Part shown: one piece after another, positions 1,819 through 11,931 of the stretch
How positions within the stretch are numbered: position 1 is the stretch's first letter
How the letters are laid out: each line of letters opens with the position of its first letter
Source: a virus
IMG/VR virus record: IMGVR_UViG_3300020582_000006
Coordinates: 1-64,000 of that record
Strand: one strand, 5' to 3'
DNA: 64,000 nt
Made by a program: the position numbers and the translations under genes
Notes under the pieces: model-generated
What the model saw: only the letters and a program-made list of their open reading frames with translations
Told to the model about the DNA's origin: nothing
Databases searched by the model: none

Positions 1819-2604
1819 ATGTCTCCTACCTCGTCTCAATTCCCGAACTATGACGTTTTTCTCGGCGATGCCTGGGGCTTCGGCAACGAAATCGTCTGTC
1901 CCTGGCTCACGCTGGCGTCAAACGTCGTCGTCGGGACCAATCCGCCTTACAGCGCGGCCGACTTTCTCTCGGTCTATCCGGCGTTCGGCGGCACGGTCCA
2001 GATGTTCAGCGGGATCGTGGCGAATGGCTCACCGGTAGTCACCGGCATCACCTCCACCACCGGTCTTCTGCCCGGCCAGGTGCTGGCGCCCTTCTACATG
2101 GTGCAGAATATCCCGGTGGCATTGCCTTTTCAGTCCGGGACCGTGATCCTGACGGTCGACAGCCCGACTCAGGTCACGCTCAACTATGCCGCGATCGCCG
2201 ACGGCACGCAAATGGCGGTCTATACCGCGCCTTTCATCCCACTCATCGTCATCAACCTGTACGTGACGCTCGCCAGCGCCTCGCTCGTCTATAACCGCTG
2301 GATCGATCACTGGTATCTCGGGATGTCGCTCTACATCGCGCACTACCTGACGCTCTATCTGCGCGAGGCGGGCAGCAACGTTCCCGTCCCGGCGAATCTG
2401 AGCCCGGGTATGATCGCCCAGATGGGCGCGGCCATCGGCTTCGTTACCAACAAAGCCGCCGGCAGCGTCTCGATGGGCTCGCAGTCGGTAACCGGACCCG
2501 GCACCGGCTTCGAGACCTGGGGCGCGTGGAATCTGACCAGTTACGGTCAGTTGTTCATCACCATCGCCAACGTCATGGGCGGCGGACCCATGTTTTTATG
2601 GTGA
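1819..2604 (+). CDS. DUF4054-like head-tail connector with inserted module
   Basis: The 261-residue protein splits into a DUF4054-like frame: residues 45-60 (AADFLSVYPAFGG) and 140-180 (NLYVTLASASLVYNRWIDHWYLGMSLYIAH, quoted in part). In known phages this family sits at the neck between head and tail. Between these halves, residues 67-139 form an inserted beta-rich module (VVTGI, GQV, VTLNYAA motifs) that also occurs in at least six other places in this virion operon. The C-terminus is Gly/Ser-rich. The last 9 bases overlap the convergent nuclease gene. Confidence 0.65.
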   Translation: MSPTSSQFPNYDVFLGDAWGFGNEIVCPWLTLASNVVVGTNPPYSAADFLSVYPAFGGTVQMFSGIVANGSPVVTGITSTTGLLPGQVLAPFYMVQNIPVALPFQSGTVILTVDSPTQVTLNYAAIADGTQMAVYTAPFIPLIVINLYVTLASASLVYNRWIDHWYLGMSLYIAHYLTLYLREAGSNVPVPANLSPGMIAQMGAAIGFVTNKAAGSVSMGSQSVTGPGTGFETWGAWNLTSYGQLFITIANVMGGGPMFLW

Positions 2605-3156
2605 TTTTCGCCTTTCAGGATGTCTCGCCCACCAGCGAGCACGAGCCTCAGACAGTTTCTGCTTCCATTCGGGCGTCCTCAGACGTTTCATGTGCGGGAA
2701 AGCAATTCCTTTTTTGACGTCGGACATTTTCCGCTTATAGTCTTCCGACCACGTCTTGCCTTTCCGCTGCAAACTCATCTTTTGGCGAGTTTCGTCGGAG
2801 GCTTTCTTGCCTGTTGTGATCTGGCGGATCTTTTCTTTGGTCGCTTCCGAATGCTTCAGGCCGGGTGAACCGTCGCCGCCCGCTGTGTAGTTGTAGCCGA
2901 ACGGTTTCATCGAACCGTAGTGCTCGATCCATCGCTGCTCTTTGGCGTTGAGTTCTTCCATCGAATCAGCACCGTCGATGATGGCGAAGTCAAAGGCTTT
3001 AACACCGTGCTTCCGCAGAGCGTTTCCGACCATCGTGCCGTGGATGCCGTGGTTTTTGATGTGGTATCTGATTCGTTCTTTCAGTTTCCGAGTAGTCTGG
3101 CCGACATATTTCTTGCCGCTGGCCCTGTGGAGGATGAGATAGATGGTTCCGTACAA
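2596..3156 (-). CDS. GIY-YIG homing endonuclease with NUMOD3 motifs
   Basis: The 186-residue protein starts with a GIY-YIG nuclease domain (TIYLILHRASGKKYVGQT, about residues 4-21), with the usual Arg-rich helix (LKERIRYH) and a Glu in the motif NAKEQRWIEHYGS. Residues 95-160 contain repeated NUMOD3-type DNA-binding helices (HSEATKEKIRQ, SDETRQKMS, SEDYKRKMSD). The start codon is TTG. It is a free-standing selfish nuclease gene on the strand opposite to the virion operon, consistent with insertion between two structural genes. The target is likely nearby in intronless relatives. Confidence 0.88.
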   Translation of the reverse strand: MYGTIYLILHRASGKKYVGQTTRKLKERIRYHIKNHGIHGTMVGNALRKHGVKAFDFAIIDGADSMEELNAKEQRWIEHYGSMKPFGYNYTAGGDGSPGLKHSEATKEKIRQITTGKKASDETRQKMSLQRKGKTWSEDYKRKMSDVKKGIAFPHMKRLRTPEWKQKLSEARARWWARHPERRKSP

Positions 3157-3941: not shown

Positions 3942-4018
<77 letters not shown>

Positions 4019-7217: not shown

Positions 7218-8891
7218 ATGGCAACGTTTCCGCTTTCTCTGCCGCTTAATGACATCATTCCGGTTACCGTCGTCATCTCGCCGGTGGTACCGCCAGGGCC
7301 TGCTTTCAACCAGGCGCTGATCCTCGGTTCGAGCACAAACATTCCGTCATCCATCCGCCTGCTGCAGTTCACCGCGCTCACGCAATTGACGGTCAGCAAT
7401 CCGAGTATCGGCTTCGTCGGCTTCGCACCAACCGATCCGGAGTATCAGGCGGCTGAGGTCTACTTCGAACAGAACCCGGCGCCGTTCTATCTCTGGATCG
7501 GACGCCGGGACCTGACGGCGCTCGGTGCCGTCTCGGTCGCGGCCGGCGGGACAGGCTATGTCATCGGCGACATCGTAGCAGTCGTCGAGTCCGCGAATTC
7601 GACCGGCAGTCTGGTGGTAACTGGCATCGTGAGCGGCACCGGCGCAGTAAACGGTGTCAATCTGATTCCCGGCAAGCAGGGCACCGGCTACTCGACCGGG
7701 ACCGCCTTACCCACTACAGGCGGAACAGGAACCGGCCTGACGGTGACGATCGTATCGACCGGCGAATCCCCGGCTGCGGCCATGGCCGCTTGCCGCCTCG
7801 CTTCGCCCCAATGGTATGCCGCGTCGAACGTCAGTCTTCAGGACTCAGGCACACCCGTTGCCACGACCACGGCCATAACGAACGCGGGACTGCCGCTCAT
7901 CAACGTAACCAGCCCCACCGGGATCGCTGTCGGGCAAATCATTACGGGCGCAGGCATCCTGGGCAATACAACCGTCATCGGTCTTATACCGGGCACGCCC
8001 GAAGTGGTTGAGCTTTCGCAGGCTCCGACCGCCAGCGGCACCGCTGTTCCGGTTCAGTTCTTCGCCCCGCTTTCCGTCCAGTCGAACGTCAATCTGGCCA
8101 CTTTCATCGAAGCTGCCACACCGCCCAGCATCCTGTTCCTGACTTCGGGCGATCCGGCGATCCTCAATAATTCGCCGAACAACCTGTTTGCGACATTGCA
8201 GGCCGCGAGCTTCAATCGCACCTGTCCGGTCTATGCGACGACGGAGCTGGGCGAGTCGAATCAGTTCAACGCTTACGCGGGCGTGGCGGCGATGGGATAC
8301 GCCATGGGCGCGAACACCGGCACCGCGTCGAGTTACTTCACGCTCATGTTCAAACAGCTGATCGGGATCATACCGGAACAGCTGACACAGCAGCAGGCGA
8401 CTACCATTTCCGGTTCGGCCGACCGGACCAACATGGGCCTGAACGGGAATATCTATGTCAATTACGCCAACGGCGATTACAAGATCTTCCAGAACGGAAC
8501 CATGGCCTCGGGCCGCTTCGTGGATATCACGATCTTTCTCGATCTTCTGGTCAGCGAGATTCAGTACGGCGCGATGAACACGCTGGTTTCCCAGCCTTCC
8601 ATTCCGCTCAATCAGGCCGGGATCTCGATGATGATCTCGGCGATCACTCAGGCTTGCGTGGCGCTCCAGACCATCGGCTTCATCAACACGTCCGGCGTCT
8701 GGCAGGGCGTCACTATCGGGCCGATCAGCCCGGGGACCAATCTGCCGAAAGGCTATTACGTCTACTCGCCGCCGGCGAGCTCGCTCACGCAGGCGCAGCG
8801 GCAGAACAGGCAATTCCCGCACATGAACGTCCTGATCATCCTGGCCGAATCCGGCCAGTCGCTCGCCATCACCGTGAACGTTCAGCCGTAA
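7218..8891 (+). CDS. Tail sheath protein (DUF3383-like) with two inserted modules
   Basis: The 557-residue protein matches DUF3383-type contractile sheath subunits: N-terminal LPLNDIIPVTVVISPVVPPG, then SIGFVGFAPTDPEYQAAEVY and FYLWIGRRDL, and a C-terminal domain (about 285-557) that ends with AITVNVQP. Two extra modules interrupt the sheath fold: residues 104-181 (GGTGYVIGD...GTGLTVTIVST pattern) and 214-283 (GQIITGAGI, VELSQAP pattern). The same modules appear in the DUF2612 wedge, baseplate J, DUF4054, plug and tailspike genes. The sheath contracts to drive the tube through the envelope. AAGGAC lies upstream of the start. Confidence 0.85.
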   Translation: MATFPLSLPLNDIIPVTVVISPVVPPGPAFNQALILGSSTNIPSSIRLLQFTALTQLTVSNPSIGFVGFAPTDPEYQAAEVYFEQNPAPFYLWIGRRDLTALGAVSVAAGGTGYVIGDIVAVVESANSTGSLVVTGIVSGTGAVNGVNLIPGKQGTGYSTGTALPTTGGTGTGLTVTIVSTGESPAAAMAACRLASPQWYAASNVSLQDSGTPVATTTAITNAGLPLINVTSPTGIAVGQIITGAGILGNTTVIGLIPGTPEVVELSQAPTASGTAVPVQFFAPLSVQSNVNLATFIEAATPPSILFLTSGDPAILNNSPNNLFATLQAASFNRTCPVYATTELGESNQFNAYAGVAAMGYAMGANTGTASSYFTLMFKQLIGIIPEQLTQQQATTISGSADRTNMGLNGNIYVNYANGDYKIFQNGTMASGRFVDITIFLDLLVSEIQYGAMNTLVSQPSIPLNQAGISMMISAITQACVALQTIGFINTSGVWQGVTIGPISPGTNLPKGYYVYSPPASSLTQAQRQNRQFPHMNVLIILAESGQSLAITVNVQP

Positions 8892-8920: not shown

Positions 8921-9442
8921 ATGGCCCAGGGAGTACTTGCTACTTATTCCGGACTGGCTCTGAACGGGGCGATCAACAGTCCGCTTTTCGGTGCGATCAT
9001 TCTGGCCGGCATCAATCAGGCCGGTATCAATCGGATCACGATCCGCATGGACACCAACCATGCGGAGTTGAAACGAGGCATGGACGGCGCACAGGTGCCG
9101 TCTTACGTCCCCGGCGAGTCGGGCGTGATCGAGATCAGCGTCTGGCAGACCAGCCAGCTGCAGCAGCAATTACTGCAGGCTTACAACGCCGTGCTGACGC
9201 TGTCGCTCACCGGCGACGTCTCGGAGTCGTTCGGCGCCACCATCTATCTGGAGAACACATCCGATCAGTCCTCGCATACCGCTTCCGGCTGCATGCTGCA
9301 GAAGGTACCGGACAAGCCTTATCAGGAACAAGCCCAGGAGGTGAACTGGATGTTTACCTGCGCCCACATCATCTCGGAACCGGGCGGCGCGGTCGGCGCG
9401 GTCATCGGCTCCGTCTCGTCGGTCCTCTCAGGCCTCGGCTAA
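8921..9442 (+). CDS. Tail tube protein (DUF3277-like)
   Basis: The 173-residue protein fits the DUF3277 family of tube subunits: N-terminal YSGLALNGAINSPLFG, a central TNHAELKRGMDGAQV stretch, and a beta-strand core with SGVIEISVWQTSQLQQQLLQ. Tube proteins stack as hexameric rings inside the sheath. It follows the sheath gene directly, and AAAGGAG is 8 bases before ATG. Assignment relies on family pattern plus order sheath-tube-chaperone. Confidence 0.75.
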   Translation: MAQGVLATYSGLALNGAINSPLFGAIILAGINQAGINRITIRMDTNHAELKRGMDGAQVPSYVPGESGVIEISVWQTSQLQQQLLQAYNAVLTLSLTGDVSESFGATIYLENTSDQSSHTASGCMLQKVPDKPYQEQAQEVNWMFTCAHIISEPGGAVGAVIGSVSSVLSGLG

Positions 9443-9449
9443 AAAATAA

Positions 9450-9473
9450 ACCGGCTCTGTGCGGAGAGCCGGT
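9450..9473 (-). terminator. Hairpin after the tube gene, best read on the minus strand
   Basis: A 9-bp stem (ACCGGCTCT with AGAGCCGGT, 6-base loop) is preceded on the plus strand by AAAAAATAAA, so on the minus strand the hairpin is followed by TTATTTTTT. It therefore looks like a terminator of antisense transcription. On the plus strand it could instead attenuate or stabilise the abundant tube mRNA. Confidence 0.5.
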
Positions 9474-9536
9474 CCGTGACATCAACCTGCTATCGACTTA
9501 CCTTGCCCTCAAGAATAACAGCTTTTCCACAACTAT

Positions 9537-9992
9537 ATGGCACACACACAGGACGTCGAGATCGAAGGCCGCGATCTCGAAGGCAACTTCGTCAAGCGCA
9601 AATTCCGCATCGGCCTCATGCGGGCCGATATCGGCTCGTGGTGCCTGTCGATCTTCATCAGTAAACAAATGGCCGATGAATCCAATTACATTAAAGCCCA
9701 GGGCTACGGCTTCGATGTCTGCTATCTGATCAAAGAACAGGCCAACAATACGCCGATCAAAATCTATGAGATGGGCGGGCGAGGCTGGCTGATCCCGGAC
9801 CTGGCTTATGACGCCGGTACCGCCTATGTGCTCTGGGACAAAGTGCTCGAATTCAACTTCGGCCCTTTTTTTCAGAGAGCCGACGAAGAGCGGAAGCGCA
9901 AGCTGCTGGCCGAGGCTTCCACAAACGGGAACTCGGATACGGTCCAGCCCCTTTCCCCGGCGATCTCGACCACTATCTCTGGCGGCCTGTAA
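9537..9992 (+). CDS. Tail assembly chaperone, short product
   Basis: The 151-residue protein is the zero-frame product of the tail assembly chaperone locus. It is placed between tube and tape measure genes, the standard location. Its core EIEGRDLEGNFVKRKFRIGL and the helix-rich middle fit a chaperone that coats the tape measure during tail assembly. At codons 110-112 the frame crosses T TTT TTT, where ribosomes can slip to give a longer product. The tail after that point (residues 113-151) is polar and low in conserved-looking features. Confidence 0.75.
   Translation: MAHTQDVEIEGRDLEGNFVKRKFRIGLMRADIGSWCLSIFISKQMADESNYIKAQGYGFDVCYLIKEQANNTPIKIYEMGGRGWLIPDLAYDAGTAYVLWDKVLEFNFGPFFQRADEERKRKLLAEASTNGNSDTVQPLSPAISTTISGGL
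9866..9872 (+). other. Slippery heptamer for programmed -1 frameshift
   Basis: Seven T residues lie in the zero-frame register T TTT TTT (codons start at 9867 and 9870), the classic X XXY YYZ arrangement. Slippage by -1 enters a frame open until TAA at 10130-10132. This is the usual expression mode for tail assembly chaperones. No clear downstream pseudoknot was identified by eye. Confidence 0.8.
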
Positions 9993-10132
9993 CAGCCGGT
10001 TACTGGCGGCAGCATGAAACCTTCGACGGCACTTACAACGTGCACGATCTGGTAGCCATCAACCGCGTGCTCGACGTGATCGACGAAAACAGGGCGCGCT
10101 ACCACGAAGCCGTTGCACAAGCCCGCAGATAA
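9873..10132 (+). CDS. Tail assembly chaperone, -1 frameshift extension
   Basis: In the -1 frame relative to the gene at 9537, about 87 codons follow the slippery site without a stop. The last part, beginning GDLDHYLWRPVTAGYW and continuing to AINRVLDVIDENRARYHEA, has strong coding character and resembles the C-terminal domain of GT-type chaperones that recruit the tape measure. There is no good start codon with ribosome site for it, which supports frameshifting. The fusion would be about 198 residues. The stop lies 2 bases before the tape measure ATG. Confidence 0.75.
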
Positions 10133-10134
10133 GC

Positions 10135-11931
10135 ATGGACAATATCCTCGAATCCTATCTCGTCAAACTCGGTTTCTCGCCCGACATCTCATCCCTGAAT
10201 GCCTTTCAGAATGCGCTGAAGCAGGCTGAGACCGCGGTCGAGCATTATTCGAGCGGGATGCTCAAATCGCTGCTGGGCACGCAGACAGCGATTGTGTCCG
10301 GTTTCGCCTCCGTATCCGCGGCCATCGTGAGCACGGTCGACAAAATGGCGATGGCCGATCAAAGCTATCGCCTGGCCGGCCTGCACATGAACATAACCGC
10401 GGAATCCGCGCGGAAGCTGACCATGATCACCAACGCGCTCGGCGCGTCGATTGAAGAGATCACCTGGGATCCGGAGCTGCACGGCCGGATGCTCGTCATG
10501 AACCAGGACCTCGACAAGCTGGGCCGGCAGCTGGGCCCCGACTTCGAGCCCAACATGAGACGGCTGCGGGATATGCGGGCTGAGTTCGGACGCATCGGCT
10601 ACAGCGTGCAGTTTCTCGGGATGCAGTTCGCGACCTCGATCTTCAAAGAGATGGGCCTCGACTTCGATACGGCTCAGGCGAAACTGCACAAATGGATTGA
10701 CGATTTTCAGGCGAACCTTCCGACTCTCGGGCGTGAGCTGGCGACCTTTCTGCTGCCGGTCCTCAAAGACACGTGGGGAATGTTCCTCAATATCGGCGAG
10801 GCTGCCAAAGAATTCGGCGTCACGTTCACCAATGTGGTCGGGATGCTGTCCGGCGACGAATCCATTCAGGGCACCGAATTCAGCGTCAACAAGCTGGCGA
10901 TCGCTTTCCACGACGTCATCGGCTGGGCCAACGATTTCGTCACCACGATGACGAACGTCGAGAAGACTGTCGGTCACTTCGCCGTCGGCATGTCGCTCCT
11001 CGGAGATAAGAAGTATGCCGCTGCGGGCCATGAATTCGCGGAGGCATTCAAGGACCATCCGGTCATCTCCGGCATCATTACAGGCGCTGTGGCCGGCAGC
11101 GTCGTTCCCGGTTTAGGGACCGTCGCCGGCGCCATAGTGGGCGGCATCGGCGGAGTGGCGTATGACGCGATGCATCCGGATAACACGACAGCCGTCGATT
11201 TCATCAAGTCGCTGCCTGCGCTTTCACAGAAAAACGACACCGGCACCGATTCCGGTTTCTTCGGCGCTGGTGAGGTGGGCGAACACGCGCGTCATAGAAT
11301 CTCGGCGCTGATAACAGGGCGACCGCAGCCCACGTTCGGCAACACCGATTCCATCCATGACCAGATCGTAGCGGAGGCGACAAAAGCCGGCGTCGATCCT
11401 CATCTGGCGCTGGCGCTGGTCAATCAGGAATCGGGCTTCGATCCGACGGCCCTCTCCGCCTCTGGCGCGATGGGCCTGTTCCAGCTGATGCCCGCGACGG
11501 CGAAACACATGGGAGTGACCGATCCCTTCGATGTCGAGCAGAACATACGCGGCGGAATCGGCTATCTCGAGGAACAGCTGAAAGCTTTCCATGGCGATCG
11601 CGCTCTCGCGCTGGCGGCTTACAACGCAGGCCCGGGCAACGTGCACAAGTATGGCGATACCATCCCGCCGTTTCCGGAGACGCAGAGCTATGTCGCGCGG
11701 ATCCTCGCCGGCACGGACGGGGCCGACGTTGCGGCGAATCCGGCCGCGCAGCCGGTCGCAGCGGCTCCGGAAACCCCGTATCACATCGAGGTCCATTTCG
11801 GCGACATCAATATCAACGGCTCGGGTTTGAACGAACATCAGACCCGCCGCGCGGTCGCCGGCGCGGCGCAGGATCTTCTCGACTTGCAGAACCTTCACGA
11901 TCAGGTGCAGCTGTCACCTGCGCTTCACTAA
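10135..11931 (+). CDS. Tape measure protein with lytic transglycosylase domain
   Basis: The 598-residue protein has an N-terminal helical tape measure part (1-330), a Gly/Ala/Val-rich hydrophobic segment (about 315-345, ITGAVAGSVVPGLGTVAGAI), and an SLT-type lytic transglycosylase domain at about 407-525. The catalytic Glu is E432 in NQESGF, followed by GAMGLFQLMPATA and LALAAYNAGPGNV. The tape measure sets tail length, and the enzyme domain would open peptidoglycan during DNA entry. At this size the tail would be short for a myovirus. It follows the chaperone stop by 2 bases. Confidence 0.88.
   Translation: MDNILESYLVKLGFSPDISSLNAFQNALKQAETAVEHYSSGMLKSLLGTQTAIVSGFASVSAAIVSTVDKMAMADQSYRLAGLHMNITAESARKLTMITNALGASIEEITWDPELHGRMLVMNQDLDKLGRQLGPDFEPNMRRLRDMRAEFGRIGYSVQFLGMQFATSIFKEMGLDFDTAQAKLHKWIDDFQANLPTLGRELATFLLPVLKDTWGMFLNIGEAAKEFGVTFTNVVGMLSGDESIQGTEFSVNKLAIAFHDVIGWANDFVTTMTNVEKTVGHFAVGMSLLGDKKYAAAGHEFAEAFKDHPVISGIITGAVAGSVVPGLGTVAGAIVGGIGGVAYDAMHPDNTTAVDFIKSLPALSQKNDTGTDSGFFGAGEVGEHARHRISALITGRPQPTFGNTDSIHDQIVAEATKAGVDPHLALALVNQESGFDPTALSASGAMGLFQLMPATAKHMGVTDPFDVEQNIRGGIGYLEEQLKAFHGDRALALAAYNAGPGNVHKYGDTIPPFPETQSYVARILAGTDGADVAANPAAQPVAAAPETPYHIEVHFGDININGSGLNEHQTRRAVAGAAQDLLDLQNLHDQVQLSPALH

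Follow-up and report, generated by a model that had tools for sequence, protein, structure and literature searches.

In phage lambda, the tail assembly chaperone (TAC) gene yields an abundant short form, G, and a minor -1 frameshifted long form, GT (PMC5009743). A -1 frameshift has also been described for E/E' of P2, at the site TTTTTTG (T_TTT_TTG) and without predicted hairpins downstream (PMC3091744), and a -1 frameshift at a T run is conserved in the Vandenendeviridae (Pakpunavirus Adele, KPP10), where the motif is GTTTTTC, and in the Felix O1 group (PMC12846349); for Moogle, which like Felix O1 belongs to the Andersonviridae, a TAC -1 frameshift has been noted as well (PMC4319497). The chaperone gene analysed here, from a 64,000-nt stretch of viral DNA ("the window", part of a source virus record of 85,313 bases), is a further case of this mechanism already known in other phages. 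What we add is a predicted identity for the families DUF6889 and phrog_4364 and a clade-specific stem-loop in relatives of the window; in the literature covered, mostly open-access, no paper was found that deals with DUF6889 or describes a stem-loop at this position.

KPP10/Adele and Felix O1/Moogle resemble the window in the contractile tail, in the order sheath-tube-TAC-tape measure and in a homologous N-terminal half (hhalign 93%, E 2.8e-7 for Felix O1 ORF65; probability 76%, E 2.2e-5 for KPP10 ORF13); the C-terminal halves are weakly alike (KPP10 47%, Felix O1 11%). Felix O1 has T_TTT_TTC in a shared N-F-G-S-F-F context, and the KPP10-type sites have five T's only (GTTTTTC in KPP10), unlike the run of seven T's (T7) in the window. 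P2 is likewise a myovirus with its TAC gene (E/E+E') between tube and tape measure and a -1 frameshift on T_TTT_TTG, but it shares only the mechanism and the type of heptamer with the window: no sequence homology was detected in either half (hhalign probability 0.4% each), and the P2-type sites lack a stimulator stem-loop, unlike some relatives of the window. The lambda gene follows the same two-form logic between the major tail protein and the tape measure gene, but its site is G_GGA_AAG in a siphovirus, whereas the window has T_TTT_TTT in a contractile-tail module.

The window locus is almost certainly a TAC gene with a lambda G/GT-style -1 frameshift, the short form being the predicted majority product and the 198-aa form the minority (Table 1). 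We computed the gene order, the frames, the heptamer, the family-wide conservation and the homology to known TACs. The genes for sheath, tube, TAC and tape measure are followed by Dit-like, baseplate J and related baseplate genes, and the chaperone gene sits between the tube (major tail) and tape measure genes, which is the position expected for the lambda G/GT type. This synteny, together with the -1-frame domain conserved in all relatives, supports the frameshifted TAC proposed in the initial annotation.

Table 1. Features of the chaperone locus and its neighbours (window coordinates)
Feature	Position	Strand	Basis
Tail sheath protein (DUF3383; phrog_205)	7218..8891	+	profile matches
Tail tube protein (KPP10_Orf10 family)	8921..9442	+	profile match, E 3.4e-19
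Short TAC form, 151 aa, 0 frame	9537..9992	+	ORF; family matches Phage_TAC_15, phrog_1688
Predicted frameshift fusion, 198 aa	9537..10132	+	inferred product
Overlapping in-register heptamer C_CCT_TTT, same predicted fusion product	9863..9869	+	sole site in relatives L108, L133, L135
Slippery heptamer T_TTT_TTT	9866..9872	+	sequence; T_TTT_TTN kept in 111/117 relatives
-1-frame extension, 86 codons + TAA	9872..10132	+	ORF analysis
DUF6889 match, -1 frame, residues 47-80 (frame read from 9866)	10004..10105	+	E 1.6e-4, 21.8 bits, cutoff 23.9
Tape measure protein, SLT transglycosylase domain	10135..11931	+	profile matches

Read from the ATG at 9537, the 0 frame runs GGC CCT TTT TTT CAG, with the T's preceded by CCC, and thus sets T_TTT_TTT in the X_XXY_YYZ register, in phase with the 151-aa ORF, as the initial annotation had it. 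The 0-frame stop lies at 9990-9992, and the -1 frame stays free of stops from 9812 until its TAA at 10130-10132; a -1 shift past the second TTT reads FFSESRRR... and joins 112 to 86 residues, which reproduces the annotated fusion of 198 residues versus 151 for the short form. A slip on C_CCT_TTT or on T_TTT_TTT gives the same fusion. There is no ATG, GTG or TTG in the -1 frame upstream of a GTG at 10040, itself inside the conserved domain, so that the extension, as annotated, overlaps the 0 frame and has no start of its own, a hallmark of the lambda G/GT-type chaperones. Runs of T7 are rare in the window (this strand has four in its 64 kb), and both TTT (37/193 Phe) and CCT (52/346 Pro) are minority codons. 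We discarded the argument from how long the -1 frame stays open, which proves little, because in the neighbouring tail genes, whose DNA is GC-rich, the -1 frame is open for at least 88 codons from 29% of in-frame positions by chance. The decisive evidence for the predicted frameshift is homology and conservation.

The N-terminal half of the window protein scores 13.1 bits against Phage_TAC_15 (PF21822; curated cutoff 22). Among the aligned relatives, the N-terminal parts match Phage_TAC_15 in 47/51 cases (threshold E 0.001) and phrog_1688, a TAC family, in 49/51. The C-terminal half of the window protein matches phrog_4364 with E 4.6e-12, and the C-terminal parts of the relatives match DUF6889 (PF21829; threshold E 0.001) in 49/51 cases and phrog_4364 in 51/51. 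Pfam and PHROGs annotate DUF6889 and phrog_4364 as of "unknown function" and model them as separate short families (40 and 54 positions), and the names in neither pair, Phage_TAC_15/DUF6889 or phrog_1688/phrog_4364, state that the two are one frameshifted gene. Since nearly all C-terminal parts match, DUF6889/phrog_4364 is, as judged from sequence, the predicted frameshift-encoded C-terminal domain of this chaperone family. The two halves were also folded as separate chains with AlphaFold, which gave models with confident cores (mean pLDDT 86.8 for the N-terminal and 83.8 for the C-terminal half). The N-terminal model found viral tail assembly proteins in BFVD (probability 1.0, E only ~2.5e-3), and fold searches against the PDB returned nothing significant for either half. 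This empty PDB result counts against the chaperone reading, as do the window protein's scores below both Pfam cutoffs and the missing downstream RNA structure described below.

Relatives were collected in two ways. A sheath search gave 80 loci, 63 of them distinct, in which the tube and C-terminal domain were assigned by homology and the N-terminal half was taken as the longest overlapping ORF; a scan with the C-domain alignment, scored by profiles of both halves, gave 54 further loci. The C-terminal domain lies in the -1 frame of the N-terminal ORF in 63/63 and 54/54 loci, i.e. 117/117, down to ~30% identity, although the loci are related by descent, some of them closely, and are therefore not independent trials. 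The conserved look attributed to this domain in the initial annotation is thus borne out. A single frame holding both halves would have pointed to a sequencing or assembly error at T7 that splits one ordinary gene, a reading to which error-prone homopolymers and the origin of the record as a metagenome assembly lend some ground; such in-frame fusions were sought in the 117 loci and none was found. Given the same frame break in every relative, and the exact sequence 9537-10134 recurring in two other metagenome records, this error is effectively excluded.

The frameshifted arrangement recurs in annotated GenBank genomes, namely SEN34 (T_TTT_TTG), Agathobaculum AB434P2 and Erwinia pEa_SNUABM_27 (both T_TTT_TTC), and Bordetella IFTN9 with the candidate site G_GGA_AAT; in all four an annotation gap covers part or all of the C-terminal domain. 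A search of GenBank phage proteins with the short form of the window gave no match. The Paenibacillus sp. P25 chromosome holds three related copies (L199, L200 and L203); in L203 a run of six T's (T6) is out of the expected register relative to the frame of the matched C-terminal domain, and this copy is perhaps a decayed prophage.

The heptamer T_TTT_TTN is in register within the overlap in 61/63 loci of the first set, the two exceptions having five T's (GTTTTTA in L031, CTTTTTC in L043), and in 50 of the 54 loci of the second, where the other 4 have C_CCT_TTT or C_CCT_TTC. Its last codon (111/117 loci) is TTC in 86, TTT in 20, TTA in 3 and TTG in 2, so that C is the seventh base in 77% of the 111. 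The proposed check by conservation thus held for both frames throughout and for T_TTT_TTN in most loci, but T7 itself is the lesser variant; and the remark that T7 is an uncommon site was overstated, because T_TTT_TTC is the norm of the family and P2 uses T_TTT_TTG. In the 61 loci of the first set the codon preceding TTT TTN is GGT (28), AGT (15), GAT (10), CCT (4), TCT (2), GTT (1) or GCT (1); the preceding base is T in 61/61, where the codon usage of the individual loci predicts 20.7, and the first Phe codon is TTT in all 61 against 37.8 expected, counts for which the loci were picked for having the motif, yet 61/63 have it. With the preceding amino acid free and its third base invariably T, the pattern indicates selection on the slippery site at the nucleotide level. 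The FF pair is invariant across the family, and the mean column identity is 49% in the -1-frame domain versus 30% in the 0-frame protein.

These observations bear on two other origins of the C-terminal domain. It could be a separate gene translated by internal initiation from its own start, as would suit the short standalone families modelled in the databases and the ATG, GTG or TTG found near the domain in some relatives. We regard this as extremely unlikely: in the window and in many relatives no such codon precedes the domain, conservation in the -1 frame starts exactly at the heptamer (FFxRKPL), and the codon-phased slippery site is maintained at the nucleotide level. The long form could also stem from slippage of the RNA polymerase, rather than the ribosome, on the T run, with transcripts that lack two U or carry one extra reaching the same frame; homopolymer T/A runs act as such sites in some bacteria (reviewed in PMC5009743). 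In most relatives, however, the run has six T's only, in some five, and others have C_CCT_TTT. The usual runs for transcriptional slippage are longer than five or six T's. What is conserved is the heptamer in its codon phase, and in some clades a stem-loop follows it at 6-7 nt, a feature of ribosome spacing, all of which makes slippage of the polymerase very unlikely.

Ribosomal frameshifting at the heptamer raises the question of RNA stimulators. The window has no downstream RNA structure beyond that of shuffled sequences (z +0.5), i.e. no 3' stem-loop of the dnaX/HIV type, and together with its nearest relatives L008 and L122, in which the stem is absent, it falls outside the stem clades. 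An upstream Shine-Dalgarno-like stimulator has any match within 30 nt in only 24/111 loci. We folded 50-nt windows along 90 dereplicated loci. The mean z was ~0 at most offsets and -0.8 to -1.3 for windows starting 0-15 nt into the site, with the minimum at +11; at offsets of 0-15 nt 16-28% of the loci fell below z -2, against 1-13% elsewhere. Many loci share one geometry, with the 5' arm starting 6-7 nt past the heptamer and a stem of 8-13 bp. All 8 core pairs form in ten loci in this register, and only one other register, with a 29-nt loop, has any; the geometry was, however, picked after inspection, and coding in two frames can itself create pairing in this region.

In a tree built without the stem-loop region, the stem falls in a supported clade (0.907) and is strongest in phages of 30-34% GC. 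When all 14 members of this low-GC group are counted, including those without the stem, 77% of cells pair versus at most 51% in slid versions, and two-sided changes occur in 21 cells versus 7.7 when shuffled; with six more members, 78% of cells pair and the two-sided changes number 23. RNAalifold recovered just 4 pairs, with an energy near zero, in the 14-sequence hairpin group, because some of its members lack the stem. A separate five-member clade has a long-loop stem, in which pairing reaches 91% of cells and changes are few. A genome scan with a single relative as the query pointed to hosts such as Clostridium, Paenibacillus, Brevibacillus and Sporomusa; of the 23 loci with a T6 site, 8 form seven or all of the 8 core pairs in this register, several of these loci being prophages already among the viral contigs.

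We consider the covarying stem-loop 6-7 nt past the heptamer a fairly good candidate for a stimulator, mainly in Clostridium/Paenibacillus-type phages and prophages, where its arrangement after T_TTT_TTN resembles that of HIV-1 gag-pol. It also seems reasonably probable that several lineages of the chaperone family have added RNA stimulators to the T run, the lineage of the window using the bare heptamer. The chaperone ratio would then be set by RNA parts that vary from phage to phage. The family offers a large natural set of T-run sites, some followed by a 3' stem-loop and some not, for measuring directly how the stem-loop alters this ratio, as well as an annotation guide for a widespread, mostly unannotated gene half.

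In the window, most ribosomes would produce the short form, and a minority would slip one base back with two tRNA-Phe on TTT TTT (U_UUU_UUU in the mRNA) and make the long form, which carries the -1-frame C-terminal domain. If the lambda model carries over, the N-terminal part common to both forms would bind the tape measure protein, and the minor form would recruit tail tube subunits through its C-terminal domain; we infer the occurrence of slippage, its efficiency and these binding roles. Just 2 nt separate the -1 stop from the tape measure ATG, so that translation of the tape measure gene could be coupled to frameshifted ribosomes; among relatives the -1 frame and the tape measure gene mostly overlap or adjoin here (median distance -3 nt, 52 loci). 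No recognisable Shine-Dalgarno sequence precedes the chaperone start or the tape measure start in the window, in which these two differ from the tube gene and from most relatives.

Several further features were observed in the neighbourhood. The intergenic region between the tube and chaperone genes of the window contains a perfect GC-rich hairpin at 9448-9475 (ACCGGCTCT...AGAGCCGGT), which scores as terminator-like on the minus strand and has no T tail on the plus strand, where it might shield the tube mRNA or attenuate it. Four relatives (L012, L024, L043 and L047) have ~0.6-2 kb between tube and chaperone, with the frameshift junction intact. In three others a second tube-like ORF lies directly 3' of the frameshift gene (L069 7652-8206, L070 5512-6066, L071 7656-8210), which suggests a duplicated tube gene beyond the chaperone. 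The structural gene region of the window also includes a CAT-anticodon tRNA gene at 3942-4018, and a 186-aa ORF (MYGTIYLILHRASGKKYVGQTT...) at 2596-3156 on the minus strand, against the structural genes, looks by eye like a GIY-YIG homing endonuclease.
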